Positions 1,623-18,690 are shown, counted from the stretch's first letter. The stretch is DNA of 21,575 bases from a virus (IMGVR_UViG_3300045999_009541:1-21575), one strand, 5' to 3'. A program made the numbers and translations. The notes: a model not told the origin generated them from the letters alone.

Positions 1623-1651
1623 AAGGGGTAGATTTTTCTACCCCTTTTTTT
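1623..1651 (+). terminator. Rho-independent terminator after the capsid gene
   Basis: A perfect 10-bp stem, AAGGGGTAGA pairing with TCTACCCCTT, has a TTTT loop and is followed by a run of T. It begins 21 bases after the capsid stop codon and stands out as a GC-rich island in an AT-rich background. It should separate the abundant capsid transcript from the peptidase gene that follows. Confidence 0.93.
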
Positions 1652-1655: not shown

Positions 1656-1670
1656 ACTATTTATAATAAA
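1656..1670 (+). promoter_or_regulatory. Late-promoter-like element, copy 1
   Basis: Exact ACTATTTATAATAAA, lying right after the capsid terminator and ending immediately before the ATG of the peptidase gene at 1671. The core TATAATAA resembles the T4 late -10 box (TATAAATA). With zero spacing the transcript would be leaderless if this is a -10 box, so a leader or translation role is the alternative. Confidence 0.6.
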
Positions 1671-2069
1671 ATGATTAAGGTTTCTTATTCTAAAAAAATA
1701 GATAATTTAAATCCTGCAAAATTTAAACATTTAACTATGTTTTTAAAATTTTGTAGAGATGAATTGAACATTACAAATGATATAAGAGTTTTTTTATTAA
1801 AAAAAGATAATAAATTAAATATCACCACAGGTGGTTATAACCCATCAGATAAATGTGTCTATACAATTGCTGAAGGCAGACAGATTGCCGATATACTCAG
1901 AACTTTAGCACATGAACTTGTACATCAAAAACAAGATTTACAAGGTAAAATAAAAGGTAATATACCTGATATTGGTGGTGTAATAGAAGATACAGCCAAT
2001 GCTATAGCAGGTAGACTTGTAAAGATGTATGTAAAAAAATACGATTCTAAAGAGATTTATTCTCTTTAG
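1671..2069 (+). CDS. Small HExxH zinc metallopeptidase-like protein
   Basis: A 132-residue protein with the zinc-peptidase motif H-E-L-V-H at residues 81-85, inside a helix (TLAHELVHQKQDLQG). E106 or D107 in the following helix (G-V-I-E-D-T-A-N-A) could be the third zinc ligand, which would give the gluzincin arrangement. No signal peptide or membrane segment is seen, so it should act in the cytoplasm or in the virion. It has its own upstream element (copy 1 of the repeated motif) and sits between the capsid gene and the inverted neck and tail block, so late expression is likely. The substrate is unknown. It is not a T4 gp21-type prohead protease, which is a serine enzyme. Its last 23 bases overlap the convergent gene on the other strand. 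The motif call is firm; catalytic activity is inferred. Confidence 0.75.
   Translation: MIKVSYSKKIDNLNPAKFKHLTMFLKFCRDELNITNDIRVFLLKKDNKLNITTGGYNPSDKCVYTIAEGRQIADILRTLAHELVHQKQDLQGKIKGNIPDIGGVIEDTANAIAGRLVKMYVKKYDSKEIYSL
2047..2069. repeat. Perfect hairpin filling a convergent gene overlap
   Basis: Inverted repeat with arms CTAAAGAGA and TCTCTTTAG separated by TTTAT. Its outer ends are the stop codons of the plus-strand peptidase gene (2067-2069) and the minus-strand membrane-protein gene (2047-2049). Because the palindrome is in register with both frames, the two proteins end in K-E-I-Y-S-L and K-E-N-K-S-L. There is no adjoining T-run in the plus direction; on the minus strand a T-run begins about six bases further on. 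It may be a bidirectional terminator or an mRNA 3'-end stabiliser. Confidence 0.75.
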
Positions 2070-2355
2070 TTATAAAGAAATAGCTAATTCCTTGTGATAT
2101 AAATAAAAAATACCAAGGTATACTATTTGCGATTGCAAAAGCTAAGAAAATTATAAAACATACCCAAACTGAAAAACAATTAATACATGTTCCGAGAGGT
2201 TTTGCTAATTTTTTAGAAATTGGTTCTACACGTTCTATTAAAAACATATAATACCAATCAAGCACATTTCCTTCATTAAAGGAAAAATCTAATAACTTGG
2301 TTAATTGTGCTGAACAAAAACCGATAAAAATTGAAAAAGCTAAATATTCCATCAT
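2047..2355 (-). CDS. Small membrane protein, function unknown
   Basis: A 102-residue hydrophobic protein. Likely membrane segments are at about residues 4-20 (LAFSIFIGFCSAQL), 60-80 (CFSVWVCFIIFLAFAIA) and 82-96. Between the first two is a polar stretch ending in the motif C-I-N-C-F-S-V-W-V. A C-x-x-C followed by an aromatic-rich membrane helix is seen in small uncharacterised membrane families such as DUF1360, but I cannot assign it. It is the last gene of the minus-strand block. Its start (two consecutive ATG codons, 2350-2355) overlaps the stop of the 23-residue micro-ORF, so translational coupling is likely. No function can be claimed. Confidence 0.7.
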   Translation of the reverse strand: MMEYLAFSIFIGFCSAQLTKLLDFSFNEGNVLDWYYMFLIERVEPISKKLAKPLGTCINCFSVWVCFIIFLAFAIANSIPWYFLFISQGISYFFITKENKSL

Positions 2356-2423
2356 CTTCTAGGTCTTCTAATTACTGTTGTTGGTTTTTTAGTTGAACCA
2401 CAACCACATCCTTTATTTTCCAT
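2352..2423 (-). CDS. 23-residue Cys/Gly micro-ORF
   Basis: A very short reading frame that exactly fills the gap between two genes. Its ATG at 2423 lies one base after the stop of the 164-residue gene, and its TGA (2352-2354) overlaps the ATG of the membrane-protein gene. The peptide begins M-E-N-K-G-C-G-C-G-S-T-K-K-P and ends in a basic tail, I-R-R-P-R-R. The C-G-C-G knot could bind metal or a thiol partner, and the tail could bind nucleic acid; both ideas are inference. The precise fit with stop/start overlaps on both sides argues that it is translated. I do not recognise the family. Confidence 0.6.
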   Translation of the reverse strand: MENKGCGCGSTKKPTTVIRRPRR

Positions 2424-2424
2424 A

Positions 2425-2919
2425 CTATATTAAATTTTTAAGATTTTCAGGTAATCTATAATCCTTAACATAAGTTGATGTTATCTCCTTAAAGAAAGGT
2501 TTATAATTATACATTTGATTATTGGTAGTTATATTTGTTATTGTATTTATTTCAAAAAATCTTTTTGTATTATTATCATCATATAAAATAAAATCACCCT
2601 TTTTAGGGTCAACATTTGATGCTTCTATATCATCTAAATATATACCAAATTTAACAGTTTCAATATTCTCATTAACAAGCATTGTATTTCCTATTTTGCT
2701 TATTTCTGATTTACTTAAAGAAATAAATGCACTTAGTTTAATAGGTTCTGCAAATTCTTTTTCTGATGGCATACTTTCGCCATAGATATCTTTTTTAGAT
2801 GCTGTAATATTAATCGGAAATAAATATATAAAAAGACCCATATCCTCATTGATATAATCTTTTGACATTCTTAAGTCAACTTCGTAGTCTTTTTGATTAT
2901 AATATATTGTTCTACTCAT
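2425..2919 (-). CDS. Possible neck protein, gp14-like
   Basis: A 164-residue soluble protein without membrane segments. Its C-terminal part, G-D-F-I-L-Y, then R-F-F-E-I-N-T-I, then Y-N-Y-K-P-F-F-K-E-I-T-S-T-Y, follows the pattern of T4-type gp14 neck proteins (a G-D-L-I-Y-F strand, an F-E-I-K-F-V strand, and a Y-K-L-x-C-E-L-F strand). T4 gp14 is longer at 256 residues. The start codon directly abuts the stop of the gp13-like gene upstream, and genes 13 and 14 are also adjacent in T4. The assignment rests on a weak pattern plus gene order; another head-to-tail connector or a virion protein of another kind is possible. Confidence 0.5.
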   Translation of the reverse strand: MSRTIYYNQKDYEVDLRMSKDYINEDMGLFIYLFPINITASKKDIYGESMPSEKEFAEPIKLSAFISLSKSEISKIGNTMLVNENIETVKFGIYLDDIEASNVDPKKGDFILYDDNNTKRFFEINTITNITTNNQMYNYKPFFKEITSTYVKDYRLPENLKNLI

Positions 2920-4044
2920 TTATTTCCAAATTATTTGAGTTTGCGCTGGAGCGTATGATAATACTTTATTTAAACTTTCACCAATTGATGCCTTTTTCTC
3001 CATAATTTTTTGATAAGTAAATTCAGCTAAATCCTCTTGTAGTTCTTTAAATATAGCATCTTTTTCTTTATCATAATCTTCGGCAAAATATTTATAATCA
3101 ATTTCAATTACTTCGTCTCTTTGTGGTAATTTTACTTTACCTGAAGTTTTTGCCCAAATAGTTGCAAGAAATTTCTTTACATATGCTGATGCCAATCTTC
3201 TTACTTTATTTTTAGAAGGTGCATTTAAATTATCCCATTTTTTAACTCTAATAGGTACATCAGATGGTAGTTTAACAATATCTTCATTTTCTTCTAAACA
3301 TTTATCTCTTTGATTATTATCAAGGGTATCATAATAAAAATACCAAACTTTAGCACCAGTTTCTGTTTTACCAAATTTACCAACAATTTCTTCTCTAGTA
3401 CCAGGTATTGGGTATAAAAAAAGTTTTTTTGTTTTATTTGGTCCGGGTGCTATTCGATATGTTAATTCACTTTGAATAATCTTTTTCTTTTGTAATCTAT
3501 CCATGGTGGATAGAATTAATGAAAATGATGGTAACATAGCTTGTGCAGGTACATTAGCATAATACCATCCTGTTGGTGCGCCAAACCATCCACCACCCAT
3601 ACCAATTGGGTCAAGAATATTTGTTGCAATTTGTGGTGGTGTATACCAAAGAACTTCATTAATTTCTCTTCCTGATGGAATAGTATAAATTTGTGTGTCA
3701 GCAGAAATAGTTACATAATCACTTTTAAGTTCCCATTCGCCCAATGTAGAAATACCTGTTTGTTTACCATACGCAATAGCAAATGATTTTTCAAAATCAA
3801 GTGTTTTAGTTGTAAACGCTTCAACAAAATTAGCTGAACTAATACTAAGACCTTCTAGTGATGACCATTGTTGTTCAATTAACCAATTATCTAAATAAGA
3901 TATATAATCTTCTATAGCCATTTCGACATTAGTTTCAATTACATCATCAGTTACCCAATCACCATAATCACGGACAGGTTCACCTATTGAAACTCTAATT
4001 TGTCTGTAAAGTTTTTGTTGTTCTTCTGAATTTTTAAAAATCAT
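2920..4044 (-). CDS. Probable neck protein, gp13-like
   Basis: A 374-residue protein, against 309 for T4 gp13, which with gp14 forms the neck that closes the filled head. The architecture matches: an N-terminal helix with R-V-S-I-G-E-P-V, an acidic 'I-E-T-N-V-E-M-A-I-E-D-Y' helix, a strand reading I-Y-T-I-P-S-G, then a C-terminal W-x(13)-R-R-L-A-S-A-Y-V-K-K-F-L-A-T-I-W helix. A K-L-P segment and a final long acidic helix that begins after Y-F-A-E-D-Y follow. This order resembles the C-terminal half of gp13 proteins in T4-like cyanophages. It is preceded by an exact copy of the repeated promoter-like element with a 9-base spacer, so it probably starts its own transcript inside the minus block. 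The assignment is by pattern only. Confidence 0.65.
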   Translation of the reverse strand: MIFKNSEEQQKLYRQIRVSIGEPVRDYGDWVTDDVIETNVEMAIEDYISYLDNWLIEQQWSSLEGLSISSANFVEAFTTKTLDFEKSFAIAYGKQTGISTLGEWELKSDYVTISADTQIYTIPSGREINEVLWYTPPQIATNILDPIGMGGGWFGAPTGWYYANVPAQAMLPSFSLILSTMDRLQKKKIIQSELTYRIAPGPNKTKKLFLYPIPGTREEIVGKFGKTETGAKVWYFYYDTLDNNQRDKCLEENEDIVKLPSDVPIRVKKWDNLNAPSKNKVRRLASAYVKKFLATIWAKTSGKVKLPQRDEVIEIDYKYFAEDYDKEKDAIFKELQEDLAEFTYQKIMEKKASIGESLNKVLSYAPAQTQIIWK

Positions 4045-4050
4045 TATGAC

Positions 4051-4518
4051 TTATTTATTATAAATAGTCATGATATCATCTATATTTTTTAATTCATTAA
4101 CTTCTTCAATCTTTTCAATTATTTCGTTTTTAGGTTTTTTAGGTGATTGAATGCCACGAAGTGAATTAATTTTTTTGTTTATATTCTCTTCAAGTTGTTG
4201 TTTTTCTTGTTCAAGTTTTTGATTTAGTTCGTACAACATTTTTTCTCTCTCTAAAAAGGTATTCTTTATTTGAACAAGTATATTAAACAAGTCATCAGTA
4301 TTGTCTACTGATTTTAAAATAAATTGATATATATTATATATTCTACCATCATTCTCAAATGTCTTTTTAGGATTTTCTAAGATGTAAACTTCGTTTTCAT
4401 CAAAAAATGGTGTCATATCCCAATCGGATGGGAATGACATGTAAATATCAACAAAATCGTCAAAATTAATTTGAACAATATAGTCTTTCAGTTCTTCAAT
4501 TATTTTTTTAAACTTCAT
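4051..4518 (-). CDS. Coiled-coil protein, function unknown
   Basis: A 155-residue acidic protein. Residues about 1-85 are a compact globular part with many aromatic residues (I-Y-M-S-F-P-S-D-W-D-M-T-P-F-F). About 88-120 form a charged helix (LEREKMLYELNQKLEQEKQQ) typical of a coiled coil, followed by a Pro-Lys linker (S-P-K-K-P-K) and a short acidic helix. The ATG overlaps the stop of the upstream 68-residue gene (ATGA), indicating translational coupling. The position inside the neck/tail block suggests a virion or assembly role, perhaps a chaperone or scaffold; that is inference only. Confidence 0.65.
   Translation of the reverse strand: MKFKKIIEELKDYIVQINFDDFVDIYMSFPSDWDMTPFFDENEVYILENPKKTFENDGRIYNIYQFILKSVDNTDDLFNILVQIKNTFLEREKMLYELNQKLEQEKQQLEENINKKINSLRGIQSPKKPKNEIIEKIEEVNELKNIDDIMTIYNK
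4054..4068 (-). promoter_or_regulatory. Late-promoter-like element, copy 2
   Basis: Exact ACTATTTATAATAAA on the minus strand, nine bases before the ATG of the gp13-like gene. It lies wholly inside the end of the upstream gene, where it encodes the last five residues, T-I-Y-N-K, just before that gene's stop. A TCATA follows, as in copies 4 and 5. Confidence 0.65.
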
Positions 4519-4721
4519 AGTAAAATATAAGTAAATATATATGTTATTGCTAAATAAAAATATTGTTTTTCTCTTTTAGAGAGAGATTCTGATAATTTTT
4601 CTTGTTTTCTCATACATCTTAAAAATACATAAGAAATGTATACAATAAAAATTATAGACCCCAAAAATAAAAATAATGGGAGGAATTTTGAAAAAAAGTA
4701 TAATATTAATTCTGTTATCAT
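4515..4721 (-). CDS. Small two-segment membrane protein
   Basis: A 68-residue protein with a strongly hydrophobic N-terminal helix (residues about 3-34, including F-L-P-L-F-L-F-L-G-S-I-I-F-I-V), a charged middle (R-C-M-R-K-Q-E-K-L-S-E-S-L-S-K-R-E-K) and a second hydrophobic segment at the C-terminus. The start overlaps the upstream stop (ATGA at 4718-4721), and its own stop overlaps the next start in the same way, which supports a real gene. A two-pass protein with a short basic loop in a late block could be holin-like, but no endolysin is visible nearby, so I leave it unassigned. Confidence 0.6.
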   Translation of the reverse strand: MITELILYFFSKFLPLFLFLGSIIFIVYISYVFLRCMRKQEKLSESLSKREKQYFYLAITYIFTYILL

Positions 4722-5497
4722 ATAAATTTACCCTTACTTGTAATAATTTTTTCCGTTTTTACGATTGGTCTAATTTTGCTAGTGATATTAGTATTTGCTT
4801 CTTCTATTTCTTTTAATGGCTCAACCACTTCAGTTATTTTATAAACATTAGGATTTAAAGATAAGACATCTCCACCAATAATTTGATAAGTTAAGTTAGT
4901 TTTATCAAGGAGAATTTTTAAATAATTCTTAGAATTATCTAATTGTTTATTTGGGTCGTCTTTGCATCGAAAATATCTCAGTTTTCCATTTACTGAATTA
5001 AAAAACTGAATTTTCATATAACATGTATCACTACTATATGTAAAATACGTTGGAATATAAATATTTACAAATTCTTTAGCTATTTTTTTTGTTTCAAAGA
5101 GTATATCAGTTTCTCTTTTCTTAATAATTTTTGTTCCTTTTATAAAATTTTTTGATAATAAAACTTGATTATTATCTGAATAGCTATCATATATATCAAA
5201 TAAATAAAAAGATTCTTCAATATATAATGTATTTGATGTTATAAAATAATCACTAAATCCTGCACCGTTGTAAGTTGTTAAACCACTAAAATAGGGTCGT
5301 ATAATAAAATTAGAAGCAGGTTTAAAAGATAACATTTCAACATCTTTATCCGCTTGCAAAGATTCATACAAAACTCTATCAATTTCAGAATCAATATATT
5401 TTTTTATTGATTCACTTTTGGGTGTAAAATCGTGTGTATGTTCTAAATTAACATCGACTTCATAACCATAATCAATATCTTTTAATATTCTTATCAT
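4718..5497 (-). CDS. Unrecognised probable virion protein
   Basis: A 259-residue soluble protein, rich in beta-type sequence and aromatic residues (S-F-Y-L-F-D-I-Y-D-S-Y-S, Y-I-P-T-Y-F-T-Y-S). I place the start at the ATG at 5497, one base after the upstream stop, giving the junction TAATATG that also occurs before the OB-fold hub gene. A GTG at 5506 would add three residues (M-N-N) and overlap the upstream gene, and is less likely. The C-terminal 40 residues are basic and Ile/Thr-rich. Context among neck and tail genes suggests a structural or tail-completion role. It does not resemble T4 gp15 as I recall it. The family is unknown to me. Confidence 0.65.
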   Translation of the reverse strand: MIRILKDIDYGYEVDVNLEHTHDFTPKSESIKKYIDSEIDRVLYESLQADKDVEMLSFKPASNFIIRPYFSGLTTYNGAGFSDYFITSNTLYIEESFYLFDIYDSYSDNNQVLLSKNFIKGTKIIKKRETDILFETKKIAKEFVNIYIPTYFTYSSDTCYMKIQFFNSVNGKLRYFRCKDDPNKQLDNSKNYLKILLDKTNLTYQIIGGDVLSLNPNVYKITEVVEPLKEIEEANTNITSKIRPIVKTEKIITSKGKFI

Positions 5498-5498
5498 A

Positions 5499-6929
5499 TT
5501 ATTCACAAAGACCTGGTTTTACTTCAGGTGTTATTTTTATATTAGACTTTTTAAAGTTATATCTATCATTGGCAAAATTTAATGTAAAATCATTAAATAA
5601 AATACCAGTGTTTCTATCACTTAAATCAGGTTTAAGCATAAATACAATATCATTGTAAAAATAATGTACATTATTTATAAATGGATTATCATAATTTTCT
5701 GGGTCACCATATTCCATTAAATCTCTCCAAATTGCTGTATTACCACTAATAACAGCATTATCAGGTAGTAATGGTTTTATTGTTAAATCAGTAAAAACAT
5801 CTTCTGCAACTGTTTCATATCTTTTTAACTCAATTGGGTAAAATGGATTAAATTTAAATCTAAAAGAAATTTCTACTGTTTGTGCTTGTGTTGTAATATC
5901 TTTTGTATATGCTGAATAATTAGCATCAACATAATCATTAAAATCAGATGCAAATCCTTGAAAAGTGTCTGTAAGTTTTATTCCTATAATATATTCTTTT
6001 TTAAGTCTCTCATTAAATAAATAATTTTCTTTATCAAATTCAATAAAATTACCTTCTAGTGTTGATTTTGTAACATCGAGTGGTGCTGAATTTGAATTAT
6101 CATGATTACCGATTTGAAGATAATTTCTAATAAATCTAATATTTAGATTTATGTTTTGTAGTGTAAGTTTTAAATTATATAATTTTAAAAAAGATTTTGA
6201 CTTATCTAAAAAATAATTTTTAAAATCAACTAAATCATATTTTGTGAATTTAATAATTTCCAATATTATGTTATCAGTTAAATCATCCTCTGAATAACCA
6301 AATTCTGTTAATGGGTTAAGATAGTCAACATACTCATCAAACTGATAAAGATTTTCATATAAAACTAAATTATTTTTTGGTATAAAACCCAAATAAACTT
6401 TATTATCATAAACATTGTCATTATCTATTTTAAAAATATCTTTTGGATTAATATTAATAGTGTTAAACATAAAACTATAATTTTTTTCATTAAAAATATT
6501 TTTTGAAAATCCATAATAATTAATTTTATAGTTAACGTCATTTGTTATTGCTGTTAATTTTTCAGAATAATGATGTGTTGTATTACTAAAATATGTTTGT
6601 TGTGGTATTTGTCTGTATAATCTTAAATCAAAATAATCTTCAAGATTAAAAACATTAGATGTGCTATCATCATTAAAAAGGTCATTCAATGTTTTAGTTG
6701 TTGTATTTTTATTTCTCAAAAATGATAAATAGTTTATTACACCATATATTCTATATTTTGTCGATTCATTTCTTTCTTTAGTAAATAATTCAGATAAAGA
6801 TATTATTCTAGTATTATTAAACTCGTTTAAATCATTAACATTAGTTTTTAAACTTATGTTTAAACCTAAATCTTCTTCTTGAGCTAGAAGATATCTTTTA
6901 TCGGGTTTTATATGTTCAATAAATTCCAT
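5499..6929 (-). CDS. Unrecognised large probable virion protein
   Basis: A 476-residue protein rich in Asn, Asp, Phe and Tyr with no membrane segments. The N-terminal third contains Y-G-V-I-N-Y-L-S-F-L-R-N. The C-terminal third contains beta-rich segments (T-V-E-I-S-F-R-F-K-F-N-P-F-Y-P-I-E-L) and a conserved-looking W-R-D-L-M-E-Y-G-D-P-E-N-Y followed by Y-F-Y-N-D-I-V-F-M-L-K. Its ATG shares one base with the stop of the 172-residue gene (TAATG), so the two are probably translated together. Both proteins also carry a short shared string, N-H-D-(N)-S-N-S-A. The likely role is a tail, baseplate or fibre component, inferred from composition and position. Confidence 0.65.
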   Translation of the reverse strand: MEFIEHIKPDKRYLLAQEEDLGLNISLKTNVNDLNEFNNTRIISLSELFTKERNESTKYRIYGVINYLSFLRNKNTTTKTLNDLFNDDSTSNVFNLEDYFDLRLYRQIPQQTYFSNTTHHYSEKLTAITNDVNYKINYYGFSKNIFNEKNYSFMFNTININPKDIFKIDNDNVYDNKVYLGFIPKNNLVLYENLYQFDEYVDYLNPLTEFGYSEDDLTDNIILEIIKFTKYDLVDFKNYFLDKSKSFLKLYNLKLTLQNINLNIRFIRNYLQIGNHDNSNSAPLDVTKSTLEGNFIEFDKENYLFNERLKKEYIIGIKLTDTFQGFASDFNDYVDANYSAYTKDITTQAQTVEISFRFKFNPFYPIELKRYETVAEDVFTDLTIKPLLPDNAVISGNTAIWRDLMEYGDPENYDNPFINNVHYFYNDIVFMLKPDLSDRNTGILFNDFTLNFANDRYNFKKSNIKITPEVKPGLCE

Positions 6930-7447: not shown

Positions 7448-7451
7448 ATTA

Positions 7452-10322
7452 TTAAGTGGTTACTATTGCATCTTTAATTAGTTGTACAGTCAGTGTACTA
7501 TCAGGAAGCTCTAAAATACTATTTTTAAAAGTAATTTCGGCACTTATTTGTGTATTAAGTATAGCATTATATCTACTAGTACCAGGATAAGATGTTGCTC
7601 TACTTAATACCTTTAAATCATTAACATCATAATAAGAATCTATATTAAAATTGTAGATTGAAAGGATAGCATTTTTAATATCATCGTAAGTCCATTTTAA
7701 TCGGAAAACAACTGAGCTGGTTGCATTATCAAAAGATATAATATCACCTTGTGTTTGAAGGGTTAAAAGATTACCCTCTTTAAGAAGGTATAGATTATTA
7801 TATAAAGTTGTTGAGTTGGGTGGTGAAAATGTTCCTCTTTTGATATAAATTTTATACTTTAATTCAGATAAATTTTCTTCTATTGTTCCCAAATTATTGC
7901 TTGCTAAGTTATAAATAACAACCCTAATATTAGTATAATTTTCTATATATTTTGCTTCATCATATTCAATACCATCAATAGGTGTTAATGATGCAGTAGA
8001 GAATTGTGAAGATGCGGTATAATTCTCTTTAACATATCTTTGATGATATATGGTACTTGGATATTTTTGCGCTCCTGGTTGTGTACCAAAGAAATTATTT
8101 TCTTCCTTTTTAAAATTGTCTTGACCATGGGCAAGAGAAGGTGGCGGTGGGGGAAGGGGTGGTTGTGGTTCATTTGCTTGTCCAGTAACATCTGTATTTA
8201 GCGGTGATGGGTCAGGGTCTCTACCAGGTATAGTAATATGATTATACATATCTGAATATTTTAACATCTCATTCATGTGTCTTTGATATGCTACATTATC
8301 TAAATATGTATTATCAGTTAAAGGACCTGTTTCATCTCTATCTTTTGCTCCAAAATATAAAATATTTGTTTGTTCTTCAAACCCATTTGTAGCATTTTGG
8401 CCGTATTCATTATCCCAACTGTTTGACCATGTATCAGGGTCAAAAACATTGAACATTGTATCTGTATCTTCTTTTTGTTCATCTACAGTTTTCATTTTTG
8501 ACCTTCTTACATATATATATTGAGCAACGCTATATATTTTACCTGCTTCAAAACTATGATGTTTCCAAATCCATTTAGCTTGGTTTGGATATTGTAATGA
8601 GGTTCCTGCTTGACTTCGTGTTTGGTATAGTGGACCATAATCGTAAGATTGTGGTATTTTTAATGCTATTTTACCTGTTCTATTTCTAGATGGGGGGTTA
8701 TCAATTATTTCATCATTTGTCAAATAAAAATATCCCCTAAAACCAATAAATACACCTGTTGGATTATTATTATTAACAGATACCAAATCTCCGTTTTCAT
8801 TTGTAACAACTTTATTTCTATTACAATTTAATAATGCAATAAAACTACCATTATTTTGATAAAAAACATAATTTTTTGGTTCTATAAATCCAATATCTTC
8901 ATCGTAAGAATATTGACTATAAATACCATCTGTGCTTGGTGTACTATCATTATTTAATATATCTGCTGTTAAATCATCTACTGTATTTTTTATAGTAAAA
9001 ACTTTAGGTACTAAATTACCCTTTTTATGTGATTGTATAAATAAATCATCAGGTATACTTTCTAAATAATTATCTTCAGTAAAGTTACATGCATTTTTTT
9101 TACCATAATATATAAATTGAAATGCATCATAATCATTTCTACCACCATTTAAAGTACAATATAAATCTTGAAACAATCTAAATCTTATATAAGGTACAAC
9201 ATTTTTAATTTGGAAACAAAAAACTAGATTATTACAATTAAGACCTGGTAGTGGTGCATTCATATTTCTATTATATGAAAAAGTTCTAGATGCACCTAAT
9301 AAACAAACTCTTCCAGCGGCATATAAAGCCCACCATCCATTAGAACCTATACTTGATTGTTCACATCCAACACATAAATTTAACCAAGCAAAATAAAGTC
9401 TAAATATAATTCTATCACCCCACCAAGTACGATTGCCAGGTGTAAAATAATTACCAAATACAGTTACAAATGGTTTAATTTGTTTGTTAAGTTTAAAATC
9501 CAATCTATTAATGCCAACATTTGTATTTGTTTCATCTTGACTCCATAATGGTTTAACATATTGTGTGATATTTTGTATGTCAATATTTGGTAATGTTTCT
9601 AATCGAAGTTGGTCATTAATTTTAGTATTTTCATCAACAAAAAAACTATCAGGATATCCTTCTAATTTTAGTAAAGCAGGTGTTGTTGAAAATTTACCAA
9701 TATCTGTTATATCTGCACACATAGTTACTGTGTATGTTCTATTGGCAGGTACTGTTAAAATATAATCACCACTTTCATTTGTGACTGTGGTAAATTTTAA
9801 ATACTTATCATAAACATATGCAAGTGTTTCATTTGTTAAAATTTCTTCTTTTTCAGGAAATGTACCGACAGGTGTTTTTGGTGTAGCACCTATACCAAAT
9901 TCATTATCAGGAAAATCATTAAAATTTCTATTTCTTGAATATTTAGGTAAGAGATTATAAACTTTATTATTGTCATCTGTATCAAATGTGGTTTGATAAG
10001 GATACATAGAAAGTGCTTCTATTTTTTTAATATCATCTAAAGTTATTGGACTACTAACTTCTGTTTCATCAATTGGAATAAATATAGAGACACGACAATT
10101 TGGTAAACCAACACCACTACCTGTAACTCTACCGACAATAATACCATAATCTGAATCAAATAATCTATATAAATCCTTTTGAAAGATTCTCAATGATAAG
10201 ATGTCAAGAGATTCGTAGGTTTGTCCAAGTTCTACATTTATGTATTTATCACCTATGTTTGTTTTGACTCTTAATGACTTATGCTTATCGTTATTACTTT
10301 TTAAAAAATTAAAAATTCTCAT
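7452..10322 (-). CDS. Large virion protein with a carboxypeptidase-regulatory-like domain
   Basis: A 956-residue protein and the first gene of the minus block, four bases downstream of its own late-promoter-like element. Residues about 59-82 (Y-G-I-I-V-G-R-V-T-G, then L-P-N-C-R-V-S-I-F-I-P) and 181-205 (T-N-E-S-G-D-Y-I-L-T-V-P-A-N-R-T-Y-T-V) form the two halves of a transthyretin-like/CarboxypepD_reg beta-sandwich, split by a roughly 95-residue insertion. Residues 317-412 hold seven Cys (317, 320, 340, 363, 369, 389, 412). A proline tract (Q-P-P-L-P-P-P-P-P-S) lies near 718-728, followed by a beta-rich C-terminal region. This domain type is often found in adhesins and appendage proteins. The most likely role is a large baseplate or fibre component contacting the host surface; that is inference, and no catalytic motif is seen. 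Confidence 0.65.
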   Translation of the reverse strand: MRIFNFLKSNNDKHKSLRVKTNIGDKYINVELGQTYESLDILSLRIFQKDLYRLFDSDYGIIVGRVTGSGVGLPNCRVSIFIPIDETEVSSPITLDDIKKIEALSMYPYQTTFDTDDNNKVYNLLPKYSRNRNFNDFPDNEFGIGATPKTPVGTFPEKEEILTNETLAYVYDKYLKFTTVTNESGDYILTVPANRTYTVTMCADITDIGKFSTTPALLKLEGYPDSFFVDENTKINDQLRLETLPNIDIQNITQYVKPLWSQDETNTNVGINRLDFKLNKQIKPFVTVFGNYFTPGNRTWWGDRIIFRLYFAWLNLCVGCEQSSIGSNGWWALYAAGRVCLLGASRTFSYNRNMNAPLPGLNCNNLVFCFQIKNVVPYIRFRLFQDLYCTLNGGRNDYDAFQFIYYGKKNACNFTEDNYLESIPDDLFIQSHKKGNLVPKVFTIKNTVDDLTADILNNDSTPSTDGIYSQYSYDEDIGFIEPKNYVFYQNNGSFIALLNCNRNKVVTNENGDLVSVNNNNPTGVFIGFRGYFYLTNDEIIDNPPSRNRTGKIALKIPQSYDYGPLYQTRSQAGTSLQYPNQAKWIWKHHSFEAGKIYSVAQYIYVRRSKMKTVDEQKEDTDTMFNVFDPDTWSNSWDNEYGQNATNGFEEQTNILYFGAKDRDETGPLTDNTYLDNVAYQRHMNEMLKYSDMYNHITIPGRDPDPSPLNTDVTGQANEPQPPLPPPPPSLAHGQDNFKKEENNFFGTQPGAQKYPSTIYHQRYVKENYTASSQFSTASLTPIDGIEYDEAKYIENYTNIRVVIYNLASNNLGTIEENLSELKYKIYIKRGTFSPPNSTTLYNNLYLLKEGNLLTLQTQGDIISFDNATSSVVFRLKWTYDDIKNAILSIYNFNIDSYYDVNDLKVLSRATSYPGTSRYNAILNTQISAEITFKNSILELPDSTLTVQLIKDAIVTT
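8140..8168 (+). other. G-rich island with possible quadruplex potential
   Basis: This stretch has repeated GG, GGGGG and GGGG runs in an otherwise AT-rich genome. On the minus strand it encodes the proline tract of the 956-residue virion protein. Its runs allow a two-tetrad G-quadruplex in the plus strand. The base composition may simply reflect Pro codons (CCN). Confidence 0.35.
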
Positions 10323-10326
10323 GATA

Positions 10327-10341
10327 TTTTTTATAAATAGT
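10327..10341 (-). promoter_or_regulatory. Late-promoter-like element, copy 3
   Basis: ACTATTTATAAAAAA on the minus strand, one mismatch from the exact motif, four bases before the ATG of the 956-residue gene at 10322. It is back to back with copy 4. Confidence 0.6.
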
Positions 10342-10356
10342 TATAACTATTTATAA
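10331..10356. repeat. Perfect 26-bp palindrome in a divergent promoter region
   Basis: Half-site TTATAAATAGTTA followed directly by its exact reverse complement. It lies in the 47-base interval between the two largest, divergently read structural genes and contains the core of promoter-like copies 3 and 4, one per strand. It could be an operator-like dyad or just the consequence of two facing copies of the same motif. Confidence 0.8.
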
Positions 10357-10360
10357 TAAA
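10346..10360 (+). promoter_or_regulatory. Late-promoter-like element, copy 4
   Basis: Exact ACTATTTATAATAAA, nine bases before the GTG start at 10370 of the baseplate wedge gene. TCATA follows shortly after, as in copies 2 and 5. Confidence 0.65.
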
Positions 10361-10369
10361 TTATCATAA

Positions 10370-13300
10370 GTGGCTAAAAAGATTAAATTTATTGGTGGTT
10401 CGGCAGTTAATAAAGATAACTTACCATCTTTTTCGGTATTTAATAATTCCTTTCAAACAACTGTATTTAACGGTGATATAGAATTATCTAGTAAGTTTAG
10501 CACAAATTTAAGTATTAATACTTCTAATAATATTATAACAACTCAAAGAGATGTTACACTTAGTGACTTAAAAATTACAGACTTGGATGGTTTGAATAAT
10601 TTTATAAAAATCACAAGTAAATTAAAGTTAAATGTAGATAGAGAAAACCTTTCAACTTATGCAGTTTATGGTTCACTAAAAGAAAAATTTAGGATAGGTA
10701 TTAATAATATAATTAATAAGTTTCCAGGCGGTTTATTTATTGATTTTGACCTTAATGGTATTACATATTCAAATATATTAGACTATACTTATGATGAATT
10801 AACAGATACTTCAACTTTTAGAGTACCAACTATACTAATTAATAATCCATTTTTAATTAATTTTAAAGTTGGTGATGTATTAGATTCAAAAAATCTTGAT
10901 AATTTAGTTCAAAGATACGAAGATTATGTTCTAAACTATGATAGTATAAATTATAGTATAAATGGTTTTACAGGTATTAGTAGTTCAAATACGGCTTACT
11001 TGTATTTTAATGTTTCTAATAATCCATTTTCGGGAACATCAACACCACAAAATTTTAGTGATGTTTATTTGATAAAACCAAATGATATTGAGTTTAATAA
11101 ATTTTATGATTCGTTAAATGAACTTGAAAGATATTTCTTAAATAAGAATTCAACACCAAAATATTCATTTACTTTTAAAATACCTGAAATTGATGAAGAT
11201 AACAATTTATCATATAAATCATATTCATTAAATTTTCCTTTAGAATCTGATGGTTACAATTTGGATACAGAATCATCTGTTTACATAACTTTCTTGGATA
11301 CTTTATTTGAGATTGCTGATTTATATGATGATTATAAATCAAATCTTATTATTAGAAAATTTATACCCGAATCTATATTAGATTTTGATAATACTTCAGA
11401 TTTTAAAACAGAATCCATAGTAAAAATTTATGGTAAAGAAATTGATGAAATTAAAATGTTCATTGATTCCTTAATGAACATTAATTCCACTTCTTATGAT
11501 AAAATAAATAATATACCCGATGTTTTAATTAAAAATCTTGCAAGAACTTTAGGTTGGAAAGCAAGAAATATAATTAATGATAAAGATTTAATATCAGCGG
11601 TATTTGCAAATAATAGTAGTGGTGATACTGATGTTGAGGCTTCTTTGGCTGAAGTAGACATTGAGCTTTGGAGAAGACTTGTTATCAATACTGCTTGGTT
11701 TATGAAAAGCAAGGGTACTAGAAAGGCACTTGAGACAATATTTAATTTTTTAGGTGCGCCACAATGTTTAATTAGTTTAGATGAATATGTATATGTTGTT
11801 GATAAACCAATTAATACAAATCTTGTAAATGTAGATGTTTTAATAGACCCAGCAATAGATGGTTTAGTACCTACTCCAATACCTTTTGATAACGATGGAT
11901 ATCCTATCGCACCTTTTACAGACCAATACACATATTTTCAAATGGATGGTAATGAGGACAATGGTAGAAAATACATTGACTTATACAGAAAATTAGGATA
12001 TGATGTTGTAAAAACTATTGATAATAAAAAATCTTGGATTTATTATGAAAGTGCTAATACACATTCATCAAGTGCTAGAAGCACAAACTATCAAGTAAAT
12101 GATTCAAGATTAATAATCAATACTAAAGAAGTTACTATTGGTATTGATGTAGCAAGAGCAATAGAATGTGATGTTTATGAGTTTAATAAAGAAAATGATT
12201 ATCCTGTAACAAGCACAGGAAGAACATCACCATATCCACAAAGAGAGTCGAATAAATTTGATGCAAATTCTTTAACATTTGCAGAATACATTAATAAAAT
12301 ATATTCAACATTCATAAATGCACAAAATAGAAAAGTTAGTGATTCTGCAATTGGTTCACATTATCCTTCTTTAACAAATTTATATTATGATTATTTAGAT
12401 AATTCATTTGCTGATATTGGTGTTGTATCAAACAAAAGAAAATTCAAAGAATTATTAGAATATGTTGATAATTTAGATAATATTTTTGATGATTTTATAA
12501 AACAATTTATACCTGCGACTACAATATTTGGTGAAAGTACCACAAATATTAGAAATACAGTATTTACACCTCAAAAATATGTTTATAAACAAGGTATAGA
12601 TGATGGTTCAGAGTTTCAGAGTAATGTTAACGAATTAGCAAGTCAACAAGATAATCCTTTTGAGGATAGACAGGATTTGGTTAGAGTAGAGTCAGTATTT
12701 TTTGATGATTATAATGATACAATATCAATTGCAACAATATCACAAAGTGTAGAATCAAGTGATAGTGGTAATATAGATACACCAACATTTACTAGAGTTT
12801 ATACACCCAAATTTGTTGCACCTGTTTGGGATGGTAAAATTTGTGAATTTACAAAACCTAGTTTTGAATTAACTGGTGCAACTAAAATAGAATTATCTAG
12901 TTTAACTAACAATTCAATTGTTAATAAAACAGATGAATCAGGTAAAACTATAACATTTAATTTCACATCGGGAACAGAAGTTTTAAGTGCTTCTACTACT
13001 GAGTTTTATTATAGTATACATAAATATAATAAATCAATAAATGTTCAAGGATTTAATGATACACCAATTTATACATTCAGCGGTTCTTATACATCATTTG
13101 CAACATCAAATACAATTTCTGATTATATAATAACTTCATCATTTACTTGTGATTCGGAATATATAATTAAACCATATTATGTATTTACTTCTTGTGTGAA
13201 TACAGGGAGTACTATTACTGCAAATTCTCCTTATACATATTATGAAGCGTTAATTTTAACAGGCTATAATTCACAATATACAAGTAGTCCAAGATTTTTA

Positions 13301-14323
13301 AATTTAACAGGTAGAACTTTTACAGGTGAAAATTTTACAACATTAATACCTAAAACAGCATATACACCATCATTTAGAAATTATAATACTTTAGATGATT
13401 ATTATTTTGTTACAGTTTGTGAACCGGATGAACCTATATTGAGATTATCATTAGGTGCTACCGAAACAGATGGTTTATTTGTTGAAACAATACCTGTTAA
13501 TACGGCAGTATTTACTGCATTTACTTTACAGTATGAACCTGTTGGTCATATTATTGTTAGTGTTAATGGTGTTACTTTACAAAGAATAGCAGAATATAAT
13601 GATGATATTTATACACCAAATTTACCTGCAAATATTAGAAGACGTTCATTTGTTTTAAATCAAAGGTTAACAAATGCACATGGTGATGTATTAACAGTTG
13701 CATATTATAAAAATCCTAATAATATACAAAAATTAGTTAAAGAAGATTTCTTATTTACAGGTTCAACAAGCATAGAACTTGATGCTACATTGAATAAATA
13801 TGTAATAACTCTTGGTAATGTCAGAGTTAGTAATACTGAAGCTGTTGTTTATTCGGATGGTGTTTTATTAGAAGATGGAACGGAATACTATGGATTTTCT
13901 CCAAATTATCCAAACAAAATAATATTGGATATACTACCTCCTGACCCACCATCAACAATTTCGGTTGTATATTTTACATATCCAAATTCTGGTGGTCAAA
14001 CAATTAATGCAGGGAATCCGTTTACAATTAGTTGGGGTATACCTAGACAAATAGATAATAATGTTACAGGAGAGTTTATACATCAATTTTATGATTTGGC
14101 TGATACAGGATTTACAGGTACAACATTATATACAACTTCAACTCCTTACGATTATTTAAATGTTGATTATAGTCAAGCATTTGATTGGAATCAAACAACA
14201 TTAACAGGTTTAACAACTTATAATTATAGATTAGCATCAACAAAAACATTTAAAACTATTAATAATATAAATTTAAGTGCAGTAACATATAGTGATACAA
14301 TTAAAATAAAAATACCAGCATAA
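10370..14323 (+). CDS. Large baseplate wedge protein, P2 gpI/T4 gp7-like
   Basis: A 1317-residue protein with a GTG start; no ATG is available nearby. Residues about 385-475 carry the tail-protein-I signature: L-A-R-T-L-G-W, then L-W-R-R-L-V-I-N-T-A-W-F-M-K-S-K-G-T-R-K-A-L-E-T-I-F-N-F-L-G-A-P. That signature marks P2 gpI and its T4 counterpart gp7, a wedge protein that trimerises with gp6 around the hub. About 715-745 (I-K-Q-F-I-P-A-T-T-I-F-G, then N-T-V-F-T-P-Q-K-Y-V-Y) looks conserved. The C-terminal third holds two related beta modules near 1055-1205 (S-V-N-G-V-T-L-Q with L-T-V-A-Y-Y; Y-S-D-G-V-L-L-E with I-S-V-V-Y-F) and a final fibronectin-III-like segment. T4 gp7 has 1032 residues, so this protein looks like a wedge subunit with appended fibre-like domains. 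The next gene follows after one base. Confidence 0.7.
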   Translation: MAKKIKFIGGSAVNKDNLPSFSVFNNSFQTTVFNGDIELSSKFSTNLSINTSNNIITTQRDVTLSDLKITDLDGLNNFIKITSKLKLNVDRENLSTYAVYGSLKEKFRIGINNIINKFPGGLFIDFDLNGITYSNILDYTYDELTDTSTFRVPTILINNPFLINFKVGDVLDSKNLDNLVQRYEDYVLNYDSINYSINGFTGISSSNTAYLYFNVSNNPFSGTSTPQNFSDVYLIKPNDIEFNKFYDSLNELERYFLNKNSTPKYSFTFKIPEIDEDNNLSYKSYSLNFPLESDGYNLDTESSVYITFLDTLFEIADLYDDYKSNLIIRKFIPESILDFDNTSDFKTESIVKIYGKEIDEIKMFIDSLMNINSTSYDKINNIPDVLIKNLARTLGWKARNIINDKDLISAVFANNSSGDTDVEASLAEVDIELWRRLVINTAWFMKSKGTRKALETIFNFLGAPQCLISLDEYVYVVDKPINTNLVNVDVLIDPAIDGLVPTPIPFDNDGYPIAPFTDQYTYFQMDGNEDNGRKYIDLYRKLGYDVVKTIDNKKSWIYYESANTHSSSARSTNYQVNDSRLIINTKEVTIGIDVARAIECDVYEFNKENDYPVTSTGRTSPYPQRESNKFDANSLTFAEYINKIYSTFINAQNRKVSDSAIGSHYPSLTNLYYDYLDNSFADIGVVSNKRKFKELLEYVDNLDNIFDDFIKQFIPATTIFGESTTNIRNTVFTPQKYVYKQGIDDGSEFQSNVNELASQQDNPFEDRQDLVRVESVFFDDYNDTISIATISQSVESSDSGNIDTPTFTRVYTPKFVAPVWDGKICEFTKPSFELTGATKIELSSLTNNSIVNKTDESGKTITFNFTSGTEVLSASTTEFYYSIHKYNKSINVQGFNDTPIYTFSGSYTSFATSNTISDYIITSSFTCDSEYIIKPYYVFTSCVNTGSTITANSPYTYYEALILTGYNSQYTSSPRFLNLTGRTFTGENFTTLIPKTAYTPSFRNYNTLDDYYFVTVCEPDEPILRLSLGATETDGLFVETIPVNTAVFTAFTLQYEPVGHIIVSVNGVTLQRIAEYNDDIYTPNLPANIRRRSFVLNQRLTNAHGDVLTVAYYKNPNNIQKLVKEDFLFTGSTSIELDATLNKYVITLGNVRVSNTEAVVYSDGVLLEDGTEYYGFSPNYPNKIILDILPPDPPSTISVVYFTYPNSGGQTINAGNPFTISWGIPRQIDNNVTGEFIHQFYDLADTGFTGTTLYTTSTPYDYLNVDYSQAFDWNQTTLTGLTTYNYRLASTKTFKTINNINLSAVTYSDTIKIKIPA

Positions 14324-14324
14324 T

Positions 14325-15290
14325 ATGTCAGAATTAGTATACGGTAAAGAATTTAATAGAGGTAATATTAACGTAGCAAAAGCTACTGTTAGTCCTAAAA
14401 ATATCTACATGGCAAAAGTCATTAGTATTGATGACCCAAATAATGTTGGCAGAATAAAGGTTTTTATTGATGGTATTGACCAAACTAGTACAGCTGATGA
14501 AAGTCTTCCATATGCATATCCTGCAATGTCTAGAATTATTCATGTAATGCCGAGAGTTGGTGAAGCTGTATTAGTTTTTATAGCAGATAAAACTAAAGAT
14601 TCGCAATTATATGGTAATAGATTTTGGATTGGTCCAATAATAACTAACTATAAAAATGTTAAAGATGATAATCAAGATACATTTGGTAGTTTGGGTTCTT
14701 CATCAAGTTTTTTATTAACTAAAAATGTTAATTTTGACCCATTAGAAACTAAATCAGAAAATAATAAAAATGATGAAGCTAATATATTCCCTATAGATTC
14801 TAGTTTACCACCTTTAAATGTTAATAATTCAGCTGATGTAACTATCATAGGTAGAGATAATACTGACATAATACAATCTGAAAATAAAGTTACATTAAGA
14901 GCTGGTAAACACAAGAAAAATTTACCTTTAGACCCCAATAATCAAAATCCGACTTATTCTGTATTGGAGTTTATTGATGATAACACATCGTATTCATTAA
15001 CAGCAGGTGATGAAATTTATTTAGTAAGCCATAAAGGTAGATTTAAATTTAAAAAAATATTAACCAAAGAGGATATTACTGATTTAAAAGAGAATTCACA
15101 ATCAATGTTATATGGTGAATTGACTGTTCAATATTTAAGAACTTTAACAGAAGTTTTTTTAAATCATATACATTCACATCCAAGTAAGCCACCAACTTAT
15201 GGTGCAAAATCAAAATATAAAATTGAAGACTTAAGAAAAGAATTACAAAACATTGAACAATTATTAGCCAAAAACATCAAAATTAATTAA
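14325..15290 (+). CDS. Baseplate hub/spike protein with gp5-type OB-fold
   Basis: A 321-residue protein. Residues about 27-105 form the OB-fold of T4 gp5 and P2 gpV: Y-M-A-K-V-I-S-I-D-D-P-N-N-V-G-R-I-K-V-F, then A-Y-P-A-M-S, then P-R-V-G-E-A-V-L-V-F, then R-F-W-I-G-P-I-I. A Ser/Asn-rich linker follows, then a beta-rich part (T-L-R-A-G-K-H, Y-L-V-S-H-K-G-R-F-K-F). After it comes H-I-H-S-H-P at 281-286, resembling the His-rich end of many spike proteins where metal is bound, and a C-terminal coiled helix. The lysozyme domain found in T4 gp5 is absent. The start follows the upstream stop with the junction TAATATG, so the two are co-translated. It probably sits at the centre of the baseplate, joining tube and spike. 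Confidence 0.8.
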   Translation: MSELVYGKEFNRGNINVAKATVSPKNIYMAKVISIDDPNNVGRIKVFIDGIDQTSTADESLPYAYPAMSRIIHVMPRVGEAVLVFIADKTKDSQLYGNRFWIGPIITNYKNVKDDNQDTFGSLGSSSSFLLTKNVNFDPLETKSENNKNDEANIFPIDSSLPPLNVNNSADVTIIGRDNTDIIQSENKVTLRAGKHKKNLPLDPNNQNPTYSVLEFIDDNTSYSLTAGDEIYLVSHKGRFKFKKILTKEDITDLKENSQSMLYGELTVQYLRTLTEVFLNHIHSHPSKPPTYGAKSKYKIEDLRKELQNIEQLLAKNIKIN

Positions 15291-15306
15291 AGTTTTACTT
15301 TTGTAA

Positions 15307-15321
15307 ACTATTTATAATAAA
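15307..15321 (+). promoter_or_regulatory. Late-promoter-like element, copy 5
   Basis: Exact ACTATTTATAATAAA, 14 bases before the ATG of the tail sheath gene. TCATA follows one base later. The short intergenic region contains no terminator, so the sheath may be read both from here and from upstream. Confidence 0.65.
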
Positions 15322-15335
15322 TCATATTATAAAAA

Positions 15336-18053
15336 ATGGCAAATTTTAATTTTAAATCACCAAGCGTTAAATTTCAAGAAATTGACAGAAGTTTCGCTTC
15401 AACCCCATCGTTGGGTATAACATCAGTTGGTATGGTTGGAGAAACCTTAAAAGGGCCAGCTTTTTCACCTATCCTAGTAACAGACAAATCTGAATTTAGA
15501 AGATATTTTGGAGGTACATCTGCCGAAAAATATCCTGATGGTTCTGGTAAAATGAAATACTTAGGACCAACATATGCAAATTCTTTCTTAGAAGAAGGAA
15601 ACCAACTTTATTTTACAAGAATTCTTGGAAAATCAGGTTATGATGCAGGTAGAGGTTGGGCAATTACAGTTGGCGGTGGTGCTTCCGGTGCAACTAGTGC
15701 ATTAACAAATACACTTACAGGTACTAATGTGTTTTTCTCATCAAGTACGTTTTCAGGTATTTCAATTAGTTCGGCAGGACAAGTAGCAGATAATATATCT
15801 ACTTCAAGTTTTCAAAAACTTTCAAACGTATTCACATTAACTAGCACTAGAATAAGTTCAATAACTTATAGTACTACAGATACTAGTGGATTCACATTAT
15901 ACACTTCATTTACATATACTGCTGAAACAAATGCAACTTATAATAATATGGTTGTTGCATTACTAAGAAGTAGAGGTAGTGGTTTGCAATCTGATGCAAC
16001 ATTTAATGTTACAGCAGTAACAGGAACATTTTATCAAACCACAGGTAGTCCTTTAAGTAACATTACAATTACAGGTATTGGTCAAACCGTAACTGAAGCA
16101 TTACAATTTAATTTAGATGTAACATCTTCAAATTATATTGCAAAAGCGATGGGATTCAAAAATTCAGATACTAAATCAAATATGTGGGTTGAAGCAATAT
16201 ATCCTGATTTGATTAGAAAAGGTGTTGTTGATGGTGAGATATATGAAGTTAAAAATATCATCCCTTTAACGACTACTACATTTTCAGATTATAAAGCAAC
16301 ATATACAAACCCTGAAACACCTTGGATTGTTTCAGAATTGAATGGTAATAAAATTTCTAGATTATTTAAATTTATTTCTTATTCTGATGGTGATTCTGCG
16401 AACAAAGAAGTAAAAATTGCGATTGAAAATATAAACCCAACAACAAAAGAATTTGATGTAGTAGTTAGAGATTACAATGATACAGATGCTAATCCTTCAA
16501 TTCTTGAAAGATTTGGTAGATGTGTATTAGACCCTCAAAGTAATAATTTTATTATGAGAAAAATTGGTGGGGTTTATAGTGATGCTGAAAGTAATTTCTT
16601 AGAGGATGCAAGGTCAGCATACATTTATGTTAATGTGAATGTTACTGCACCAATAAATTCAATACCTTGTGGTTTTGAGGGTTATTTCTTTAGAAATTAT
16701 GATAATCCAAACGCTAAAACTCCAAAGATGGTTTATAAAACTACTTATTCATCAACTGATAAAGTTTTAAAAACATATTTGGGTATTTCTGAGAAAGCTT
16801 TTGATACATCATCAACTAAAGGATTATCAGTAAATGATGATTTGTTCAAATATTTGGGTTCTAACACTGCTGCTTCTAGTCTCTATAAGACAAAAGGTTT
16901 TCACTTAGATTCAGGTGCTACTGGTAATTACACTTCTTCAACAGGTAGTAATCCTGTAATTGGTGAATTTGAAGTTGGTGCAGGTGCTATTTCTAATACT
17001 GCAAGTGTAGCAACAGGTGTTTACCAAGATACAAACAAGCGTAAATTTGTTGTTGTTCCGGCAGGTGGTTTTGATGGTTGGGATATTAACTATGAAAACT
17101 TCAGAGGAAGAATGATTACAAGCACATTTGCACAAGGTGGCGCAGCTGCATTTCCTGAATCAGATTACAATGCTTATAAAGAAGCATATCAAATTTATGA
17201 AGATACTGAAAGAACACCAATTAACTTATTTACAACTCCTGGTCTAAATTGGTCTGATAATACAAATCTAGTTGAAGATGTATTAGAAATTATTGAAGAA
17301 GTTCGTCAAGATGCTCTTTATATAATCGATGCTCCTGATGCCGATTTAAATTCTACACCAACTGTTGTAGCAGGTAGTTATGCTGATGATTTAGATAATG
17401 CAGGTTTAGATTCTTCTTATGCTGCTACTTATGTACCTTGGATTAAAAGAAAAGACCCTGATTCAAATACAAACATTTATATTCCACCAACAGGTGAAGT
17501 ATTAAAAGCAATGGCTTTAGCTGATAGAACATCATTTATTTGGTTTGCAACAGCAGGTTTAAATAGAGGTGGTCTTCCAAATGCTAGAGATGTAAGAAAA
17601 ACTTTTAAAGAGTCTGATAGAGATATCTTATATCTTTCAAGATTAAATCCAATTGTTAAATTCTCAAATAATACTCCTGGAATATTTATCTACGGTCAAA
17701 AAACTCTACAAGTTGCTGATTCTAAACTTGATAGAATTGATGTAAGAAGACTTCTTCTTTATGCAAAACAAATCATTTCTTCTCAAGCTAGATTGTATTT
17801 ATTTGAACCAAATGATGAAACATTGGCAAGTAGCTTTATTTCAGAATCTAATAAGAAACTTAAAGTTATTCAAGATAACAGAGGTTTACAAACTTTCAGA
17901 GTTAGATTAGATAATACATTAAACACAGCTGAAAGTAGAGATAGAAACGAACTTTACTTTGTGATTGAATTGTTACCGATAGGTGCAGTAGAGTTTATTG
18001 GTCTAACATTTGTAGTAAATAAATCAACAAGTGCAATTCAATTTAATGGATAA
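15336..18053 (+). CDS. 18: Contractile tail sheath protein, gp18-like
   Basis: Forms the outer contractile cylinder of the tail. The N-terminus is diagnostic: S-P-S-V-K-F-Q-E-I-D-R-S, then G-I-T-S-V-G-M-V-G-E-T-L-K-G-P-A-F-S-P-I-L-V-T, then E-F-R-R-Y-F-G. The C-terminal domain has R-R-L-L-L-Y-A-K-Q-I-I-S-S-Q-A-R-L-Y-L-F-E-P-N-D, then R-N-E-L-Y-F-V-I-E-L-L-P-I-G-A-V-E-F-I, as in gp18. At 905 residues it is about 245 longer than T4 gp18 (659). Much of the excess may be a Ser/Thr-rich beta region at about 115-270, inserted before the I-A-K-A-M-G-F-K-N segment and probably exposed on the outside. It has its own promoter-like element, and the tube gene follows 37 bases later. Confidence 0.95.
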   Translation: MANFNFKSPSVKFQEIDRSFASTPSLGITSVGMVGETLKGPAFSPILVTDKSEFRRYFGGTSAEKYPDGSGKMKYLGPTYANSFLEEGNQLYFTRILGKSGYDAGRGWAITVGGGASGATSALTNTLTGTNVFFSSSTFSGISISSAGQVADNISTSSFQKLSNVFTLTSTRISSITYSTTDTSGFTLYTSFTYTAETNATYNNMVVALLRSRGSGLQSDATFNVTAVTGTFYQTTGSPLSNITITGIGQTVTEALQFNLDVTSSNYIAKAMGFKNSDTKSNMWVEAIYPDLIRKGVVDGEIYEVKNIIPLTTTTFSDYKATYTNPETPWIVSELNGNKISRLFKFISYSDGDSANKEVKIAIENINPTTKEFDVVVRDYNDTDANPSILERFGRCVLDPQSNNFIMRKIGGVYSDAESNFLEDARSAYIYVNVNVTAPINSIPCGFEGYFFRNYDNPNAKTPKMVYKTTYSSTDKVLKTYLGISEKAFDTSSTKGLSVNDDLFKYLGSNTAASSLYKTKGFHLDSGATGNYTSSTGSNPVIGEFEVGAGAISNTASVATGVYQDTNKRKFVVVPAGGFDGWDINYENFRGRMITSTFAQGGAAAFPESDYNAYKEAYQIYEDTERTPINLFTTPGLNWSDNTNLVEDVLEIIEEVRQDALYIIDAPDADLNSTPTVVAGSYADDLDNAGLDSSYAATYVPWIKRKDPDSNTNIYIPPTGEVLKAMALADRTSFIWFATAGLNRGGLPNARDVRKTFKESDRDILYLSRLNPIVKFSNNTPGIFIYGQKTLQVADSKLDRIDVRRLLLYAKQIISSQARLYLFEPNDETLASSFISESNKKLKVIQDNRGLQTFRVRLDNTLNTAESRDRNELYFVIELLPIGAVEFIGLTFVVNKSTSAIQFNG

Positions 18054-18066
18054 ACAATAAAAAGAT

Positions 18067-18081
18067 ACTATTTAAAATAAA
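18067..18081 (+). promoter_or_regulatory. Late-promoter-like element, copy 6 (one mismatch)
   Basis: ACTATTTAAAATAAA, differing from the exact motif by one base, nine bases before the ATG of the tail tube gene. The spacing equals that of copies 2 and 4. Confidence 0.5.
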
Positions 18082-18650: not shown

Positions 18651-18690
18651 GGTATAAAAGTTGTATATTTATTATTAAAACAATTAAAAT

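Follow-up and report, generated by a model that had tools for sequence, protein, structure and literature searches.

The structural genes of a group of T4-like phages are headed by a short element, CTATTTA-N4-AAA, which on the sequence comparisons presented here is very probably the promoter of their late genes. The element was noticed in a stretch of 21,575 nucleotides (IMGVR_UViG_3300045999_009541:1-21575; hereafter the window). This fragment of 21.6 kb comes from a T4-like phage, and its database record holds nothing beyond it. The reading as a whole, that of a variant gp55-type late promoter giving very short or leaderless messages, we regard as probable. A first-pass annotation of the window had already proposed a phage-specific late promoter, and this proposal gains strong support from the genome-wide placement of the copies, their bias toward the heads of operons, their orientation, the terminators that abut them and relatives with longer leaders. 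No report of the motif was found in the literature searched and, as far as searched, late transcription, which is well understood for T4, appears to be undescribed in the abundant T4-like phages of Flavobacteriia.

In the proposed model, each copy would constitute the core of a phage late promoter with no -35 box. CTATTTA would be a -10-type box (C at -13, TA at -12/-11), N4 the discriminator, and AAA would occupy positions -2 to +1, with transcription starting at the last A of the 15-base element, within a base or two. A phage-encoded and strongly diverged gp55-type sigma factor (encoded at 164497-165294 in G001, the largest related record; gp118 in phage immuto) would steer the host RNA polymerase to the element. 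This sigma-directed switch would turn on the virion genes late in infection, with leaders of 1 to ~20 bases that are sometimes absent altogether.

Copies of the element in the window

The refined pattern CTATTTANNNNAAA (CTATTTA-N4-AAA) matches exactly six sites in the window, where 0.56 are expected and none of 100 shuffled sequences reaches six; with up to three mismatches to the original 15-mer, 24 matches are found versus 12.8 expected. The six sites are the copies listed in the first-pass annotation, all of which are present on the strands given; the start codons at 1671, 4044, 10370 (GTG), 15336, 10322 and 18091 follow them after the stated 0, 9, 9, 14, 4 and 9 bases, respectively.

The exact copy at 1656..1670 (+) precedes a 132-codon gene, with a predicted start site at 1670, 1 base before the ATG at 1671. 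Its relatives carry the element at the same position, with a gap to the ATG of 0, 1 or 2. The exact copy at 4054..4068 (-), conserved in relatives, overlaps the 3′ end of the preceding gene and lies before a 374-codon gene (2920-4044; predicted start site 4054). Upstream of the tail sheath gene (15336..18053, +; phrog_23, E 1.6e-55) there is an exact copy at 15307..15321 (+; predicted start site 15321), and the tail tube gene (18091..18594, +; phrog_4542, E 8e-26) is preceded by a CTATTTAN4AAA match at 18067..18081 (+; predicted start site 18081). The tube-gene copies in relatives keep CTATTTAAAATAAA. The remaining two copies stand back to back. One, at 10327..10341 (-), has one mismatch to the 15-mer and a full CTATTTAN4AAA match and precedes a 956-codon gene (7452-10322; predicted start site 10327); the other, at 10346..10360 (+), is exact and precedes a 1317-codon gene that begins with GTG (10370-14323; predicted start site 10360). 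These two divergent elements form a palindrome (TTATAAATAGTTATAACTATTTATAA; 10323-10369), and since their predicted start sites are 33 bases apart, two polymerases are probably unable to bind simultaneously. Such back-to-back pairs also occur in the G001 and G002 records.

Profile searches identified the sheath and tube genes and, where the window begins on the left, the capsid gene (gp23). Two of the gene names in the first-pass annotation stand, while "gp13-like", "wedge" and "956-residue virion protein" are without a family match in the libraries searched, and the name metallopeptidase for the 132-codon gene has the visible HExxH motif as its basis. The statement that hsp20 and nrdA lack the element was correct. 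TCATA, which had been remarked on after three of the copies, is there, but its offsets of 4, 3 and 0 vary, and it thus does not belong to the element. The annotation had missed a further, seventh copy, ACTATTGATAATAAA at 12014 (+), which has one mismatch. It lies inside the 1317-codon gene and was rejected as a promoter: the mismatch breaks the otherwise invariant core, and the orthologous gene of relatives retains the stretch, as expected of a match in coding sequence.

Conservation and consensus in close relatives

A sheath search yielded 18 close relatives with 58-81% identity in the best segment, the largest records being those of G001 (170 kb), G002 (129 kb) and G003 (75 kb). In all 18, the element is found upstream of the sheath gene, exactly or with one or two mismatches, and the flanking bases differ. 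Scans of whole records with at most one mismatch place nearly all copies 0-19 bases ahead of a start codon. Copies located -3 to 30 bases before a start make up 34/38 in G001 and 25/28 in G002, whereas permuted motifs give a mean of 0.4 and a maximum of 3. An unsupervised ranking of 8-mers in the regions upstream of genes put ACTATTTA first, together with CTATTTAT, in both G001 and G002.

Sites with CTATTTA-N4-AA no more than 45 bases from a start, 99 in all from six phages, were aligned to derive the consensus. Although the selection required only two A residues after N4, a third one is present at 99/99 sites. An A is preferred before the C of CTATTTA, and beyond this base no strongly conserved column, such as a -35 box, is seen upstream of the 99 sites. 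The N4 segment has loose preferences; it varies among genes but is kept among orthologues (AAAT for the tube gene and AATT for the capsid gene). The exact 15-mer in viral contigs is uninformative, as nearly all occurrences among the matches listed are single copies. One relative, G006 (loci L110 and L111), has a record that is apparently rich in frameshifts, with the sheath and sigma genes split into short frames, probably by sequencing error.

Occurrence in more distant phages

The cultured Flavobacterium phage immuto has TATTTATAATAAA or close forms before its terminase, portal, sheath, tube, hub and tape measure genes, in boxes that are unannotated in its record. It thus resembles the window clade in having a TATTTATAATAAA-type core before virion genes and, as discussed below, in its sigma family. 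It differs in that the C at -13 is not fixed and in that the gap to the ATG is usually 10-20 bases. When motifs were sought in immuto by a home-made expectation-maximization procedure, it settled on base composition. In Mel-JY01, listed on Microcystis, ATATTTAT occurs 30-45 bases before several structural genes and is followed by a GGAG-type Shine-Dalgarno sequence; 21 core copies lie near starts, relative to a mean of 7.5 in permuted controls.

Promoter or translation signal

The proximity of the element to start codons could suggest a signal that is read at the RNA level, that is, a translation leader for initiation free of Shine-Dalgarno pairing, as the first-pass annotation had considered. 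Flavobacterium ribosomes prefer A-rich upstream bases without a Shine-Dalgarno sequence (PMC6847099), and the phages of the window clade have no Shine-Dalgarno sequences either. However, the gap between AAA and the start codon ranges from 0 to 29 bases and AAA stays locked to CTATTTA at 99/99 sites; its position is fixed to the core and not to the start codon. Furthermore, most genes are without the element, and tight cistrons almost always lack it: in the structural half of G001, 10/12 divergent gene starts have it versus 2/32 tandem starts with gaps of at most 20 bases. The genes that it does head include those for sheath, tube, capsid, portal and baseplate wedge. In Mel-JY01, the core stands farther upstream and the Shine-Dalgarno sequence is a separate one, which uncouples the core from translation.

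The terminators bear on the same question. An intrinsic terminator, a hairpin with a T tail at 1623..1646 (+), ends the capsid gene unit directly upstream of the 1656 element and is kept in five relatives. Together with these five at the same place and another G001 gene, terminators abut seven copies. An element placed right after an intrinsic terminator means that the downstream gene needs its own transcription start within a few bases. In the gaps between tandem genes, 54/56 copies point downstream. For the same reason, an antisense reading, with TATAAATA on the other strand as the box, was tried and rejected.

Collectively, the bias toward gene heads, the orientation, the terminators, the fixed distance of AAA to the core and the restricted occurrence favor a promoter over a translation leader. 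The latter is largely refuted already and we consider it very unlikely. Its premise, that the messages are nearly leaderless, seems right.

Register, start site and leaders

In the Flavobacterium host box, TA is at -12/-11 (PMC6847099). If the TA of CTATTTA is set at the same positions, the element's last A becomes the predicted start. Two checks support this register. No start codon in the window clade lies upstream of this base. Among distant relatives (59 loci), 45/122 start codons fall within positions -2 to 0, counted from the predicted start, and there is none further upstream. The register would give leaders of about 1-20 bases and, for some messages, no leader at all.

The first-pass annotation had instead likened TATAATAA to the T4 late box TATAAATA and had brought in gp55. 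The gp55 idea is retained here (see below), while the box is CTATTTA plus AAA, and TATAATAA falls largely in the variable N4. A late promoter in the T4 register, with TATAATAA standing for TATAAATA, could draw on some immuto sites that read TATTTATAAATAA and contain TATAAATA in sense. In T4, however, the late start is about one helical turn below the box (PMC2988020), which would place the start beyond the ATG at 17/99 sites of the window clade and at many sites of its relatives. Given in addition that CTATTTA is fixed and N4 variable, this register is highly improbable.

The candidate sigma factor

The search for a gp55-like sigma factor that the first-pass annotation had called for gave a mixed outcome. 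The PHROG profiles for gp55 and gp45 do detect T4, but phrog_234 and phrog_12791, the gp55 profiles, have no match in the window clade. On the other hand, a diverged gp55-like protein was found. It came into view through immuto gp118, which matches a gp55 profile weakly (E 0.008) and has homologues in G001 (a 265-codon gene at 164497-165294), G002, LR756508 and Mel-JY01. These are conserved and annotated "hypothetical protein", and the family has at least 587 relatives in viral contigs. Compared with a profile of eight gp55 proteins, the candidate gives P values of 2.8e-6 and 2.1e-5 and is collinear over region 2. When 149 G001 families were compared with gp55 in local profile comparisons, the candidate ranked first and a 280-residue sigma protein second. 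Pfam region 2 touches the candidate gene below cut-off in two further records.

A first AlphaFold model, built from seven near-identical sequences, had a mean predicted local distance difference test score (pLDDT) of 55, and a fold search with it was without a significant match. The model of the candidate family reached a mean pLDDT of 79 and has a sigma region 2 fold. In a second-look alignment, T4 gp55 in an open promoter complex (7d7c_F) is its best match among experimental structures, with a Z of 9.5 and 110 residues aligned at 3.7 A; the rows listed are mostly sigma factors. The C-terminal helices of the model might correspond to region 4, and no clamp-binding epitope is apparent at the C-terminus in the family alignment. 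Since the homology to gp55 is remote, the candidate is named gp55-like and is not filed as a certain gp55 member. That this protein reads the element is, in our estimate, likely.

Several observations weigh against a gp55-type promoter. No gp45-type clamp was found: the gp45 profile has no match in the window clade, where the records are possibly incomplete. A Foldseek search with the better candidate model gave no match with E <0.001, and gp55 was absent among its rows; for helical proteins, a Z near 9 is a modest value. In the immuto group, eight start codons precede the predicted start by 2-5 bases, although several of these sites are TATTTAAAA sequences and perhaps no promoters. The uncultured LR756508 encodes the gp55-like candidate, but TATTTAT is not enriched in the 50 kb of it that was tested. 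Finally, the element could be read by either of two ordinary sigma-70-like proteins of the window clade.

This last point amounts to an alternative, namely that the late promoter is read not by the gp55-like protein but by one of these two (280 and 173 residues in G001). Both are true sigma relatives, and G001, G002, G003 and G007 each encode the pair. The 280-residue protein is the second best against the gp55 profile, and its gene has the host-type box TTTG-N20-TATATTTG, as expected of a switch that is made early. Yet this protein has a region 4, which leads one to expect a -35 box, and none is conserved. Moreover, the TATTTAT core and a gp55-like protein occur without any detectable sigma-70 gene or domain in immuto, in Mel-JY01 and in an immuto-like record of 162 kb. 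We therefore consider the alternative unlikely. The two sigma-70-like genes of G001 (103736-104578 and 102236-102757; locus L092) flank a primase gene, and a role with middle genes is possible; the promoter of the longer gene is of the canonical Bacteroidota type.

Comparison with known promoters

The late promoters of T4, read with gp55 (Straboviridae; PMC2988020), and the element described here share a single A/T-rich -10-type box, the lack of a -35 or other upstream element, virion units on either strand and a gp55-like sigma factor. The T4 box TATAAATA spans 8 bases at about -13 to -6, whereas the box here is CTATTTA-N4-AAA in another register relative to the start site; these two differences set the element outside the T4 late-promoter class in the strict sense. 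T4 late promoters are activated by the gp45 sliding clamp together with gp33, and no gp45-type clamp was found here. Further differences from the T4 system are leaders that are predicted to be very short or absent and a candidate sigma factor that is longer and only remotely similar.

The promoters of the Bacteroidota primary sigma factor (TTTG / TAnnTTTG; PMC6847099, PMC9723704) likewise have TA at -12/-11, by the register adopted above, which could point to a host promoter that the host's own sigma factor reads in unmodified form, the common TA being part of the host box TAHHTTTG (PMC6847099). The element, however, has neither TTTG at -8 to -5 nor any box near -33; in place of these it has AAA at -2 to +1 and C at -13. 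Elsewhere in these phages, some genes do have host-type boxes, among them the G001 gene for the 280-residue sigma protein. The chance that the element is a host promoter is therefore close to negligible.

Other possible promoter classes and the host

The gene hsp20 is preceded by a different box, TATATTTA at 18664..18671 (+). At 18631-18690, a hairpin with a T run and a conserved TTGTATATTTA box lie upstream of the gene, unlike the late element, and GTATATTTA is kept at this position, after the hairpin and T run, in the relatives compared. A canonical TTTG/TAnnTTTG promoter was rejected for hsp20, as only the TATATTTA part is present and TTTG is 12 bases away versus ~19.

In the small-gene region of G001 (13.7-36 kb; loci L087 and L088), there is another box, similar to host-type promoters: TTTGTAAGATT-N-TTTGATATATTAAGG, of which one strand has 19 strict bipartite copies. 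In the form TTTGTAAGATT-N8 to 12-TTTGATATATTAAGGTRTAACAAA, it heads ~27 small genes of this early region, with the ATG sometimes right after AGGT (leaderless). This TTTGTAAGATT-type early element was not found in the other relatives compared. CGTATTTT or its complement lies beside late elements or before genes in G001 (54533, 67251, 70399, 74824, 122278 and 166090) and is possibly a further promoter class. Eleven otherwise different G001 proteins share an N-terminus like MKKVRITESQLRGLVRRMIKEE (9080, 10701, 12406, 20959, 21440, 40526, 48638, 49691, 50043, 50730 and 54533), and several of their genes have the late element. The shared N-terminus resembles a tag for targeting to the capsid, with an (I/L)xE cleavage site of the gp21 type, and these are possibly packaged internal proteins.

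With respect to the host, the relatives of the window nrdA include proteins at ~50% identity in assemblies of Flavobacteriaceae and other Bacteroidota, and also contigs of an Aliivibrio assembly. The absence of Shine-Dalgarno sequences and the host-type boxes agree with a Bacteroidota host for the window phage, for which this evidence is suggestive only.

Implications

Among the T4-like phages of Bacteroidota, a widespread lineage may have moved its late promoter to (C/A)TATTTA-N4-AAA, with a highly diverged gp55 homologue that works free of a gp45-type clamp and with late messages that are leaderless or almost so, in hosts whose own messages are mostly leadered; we put this account forward tentatively. 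In Flavobacterium johnsoniae, most messages have leaders of more than 10 bases (PMC6847099). The group is represented by hundreds of environmental records and by a single cultured model, immuto, grown on Flavobacterium sp. LMO8. For it, the present data provide a precise consensus of the promoter, a prediction of the start base and a candidate sigma factor that can be named. With these, late units could be annotated from sequence alone. The finding also raises the question of how hosts that do without Shine-Dalgarno sequences would translate leaderless late messages.

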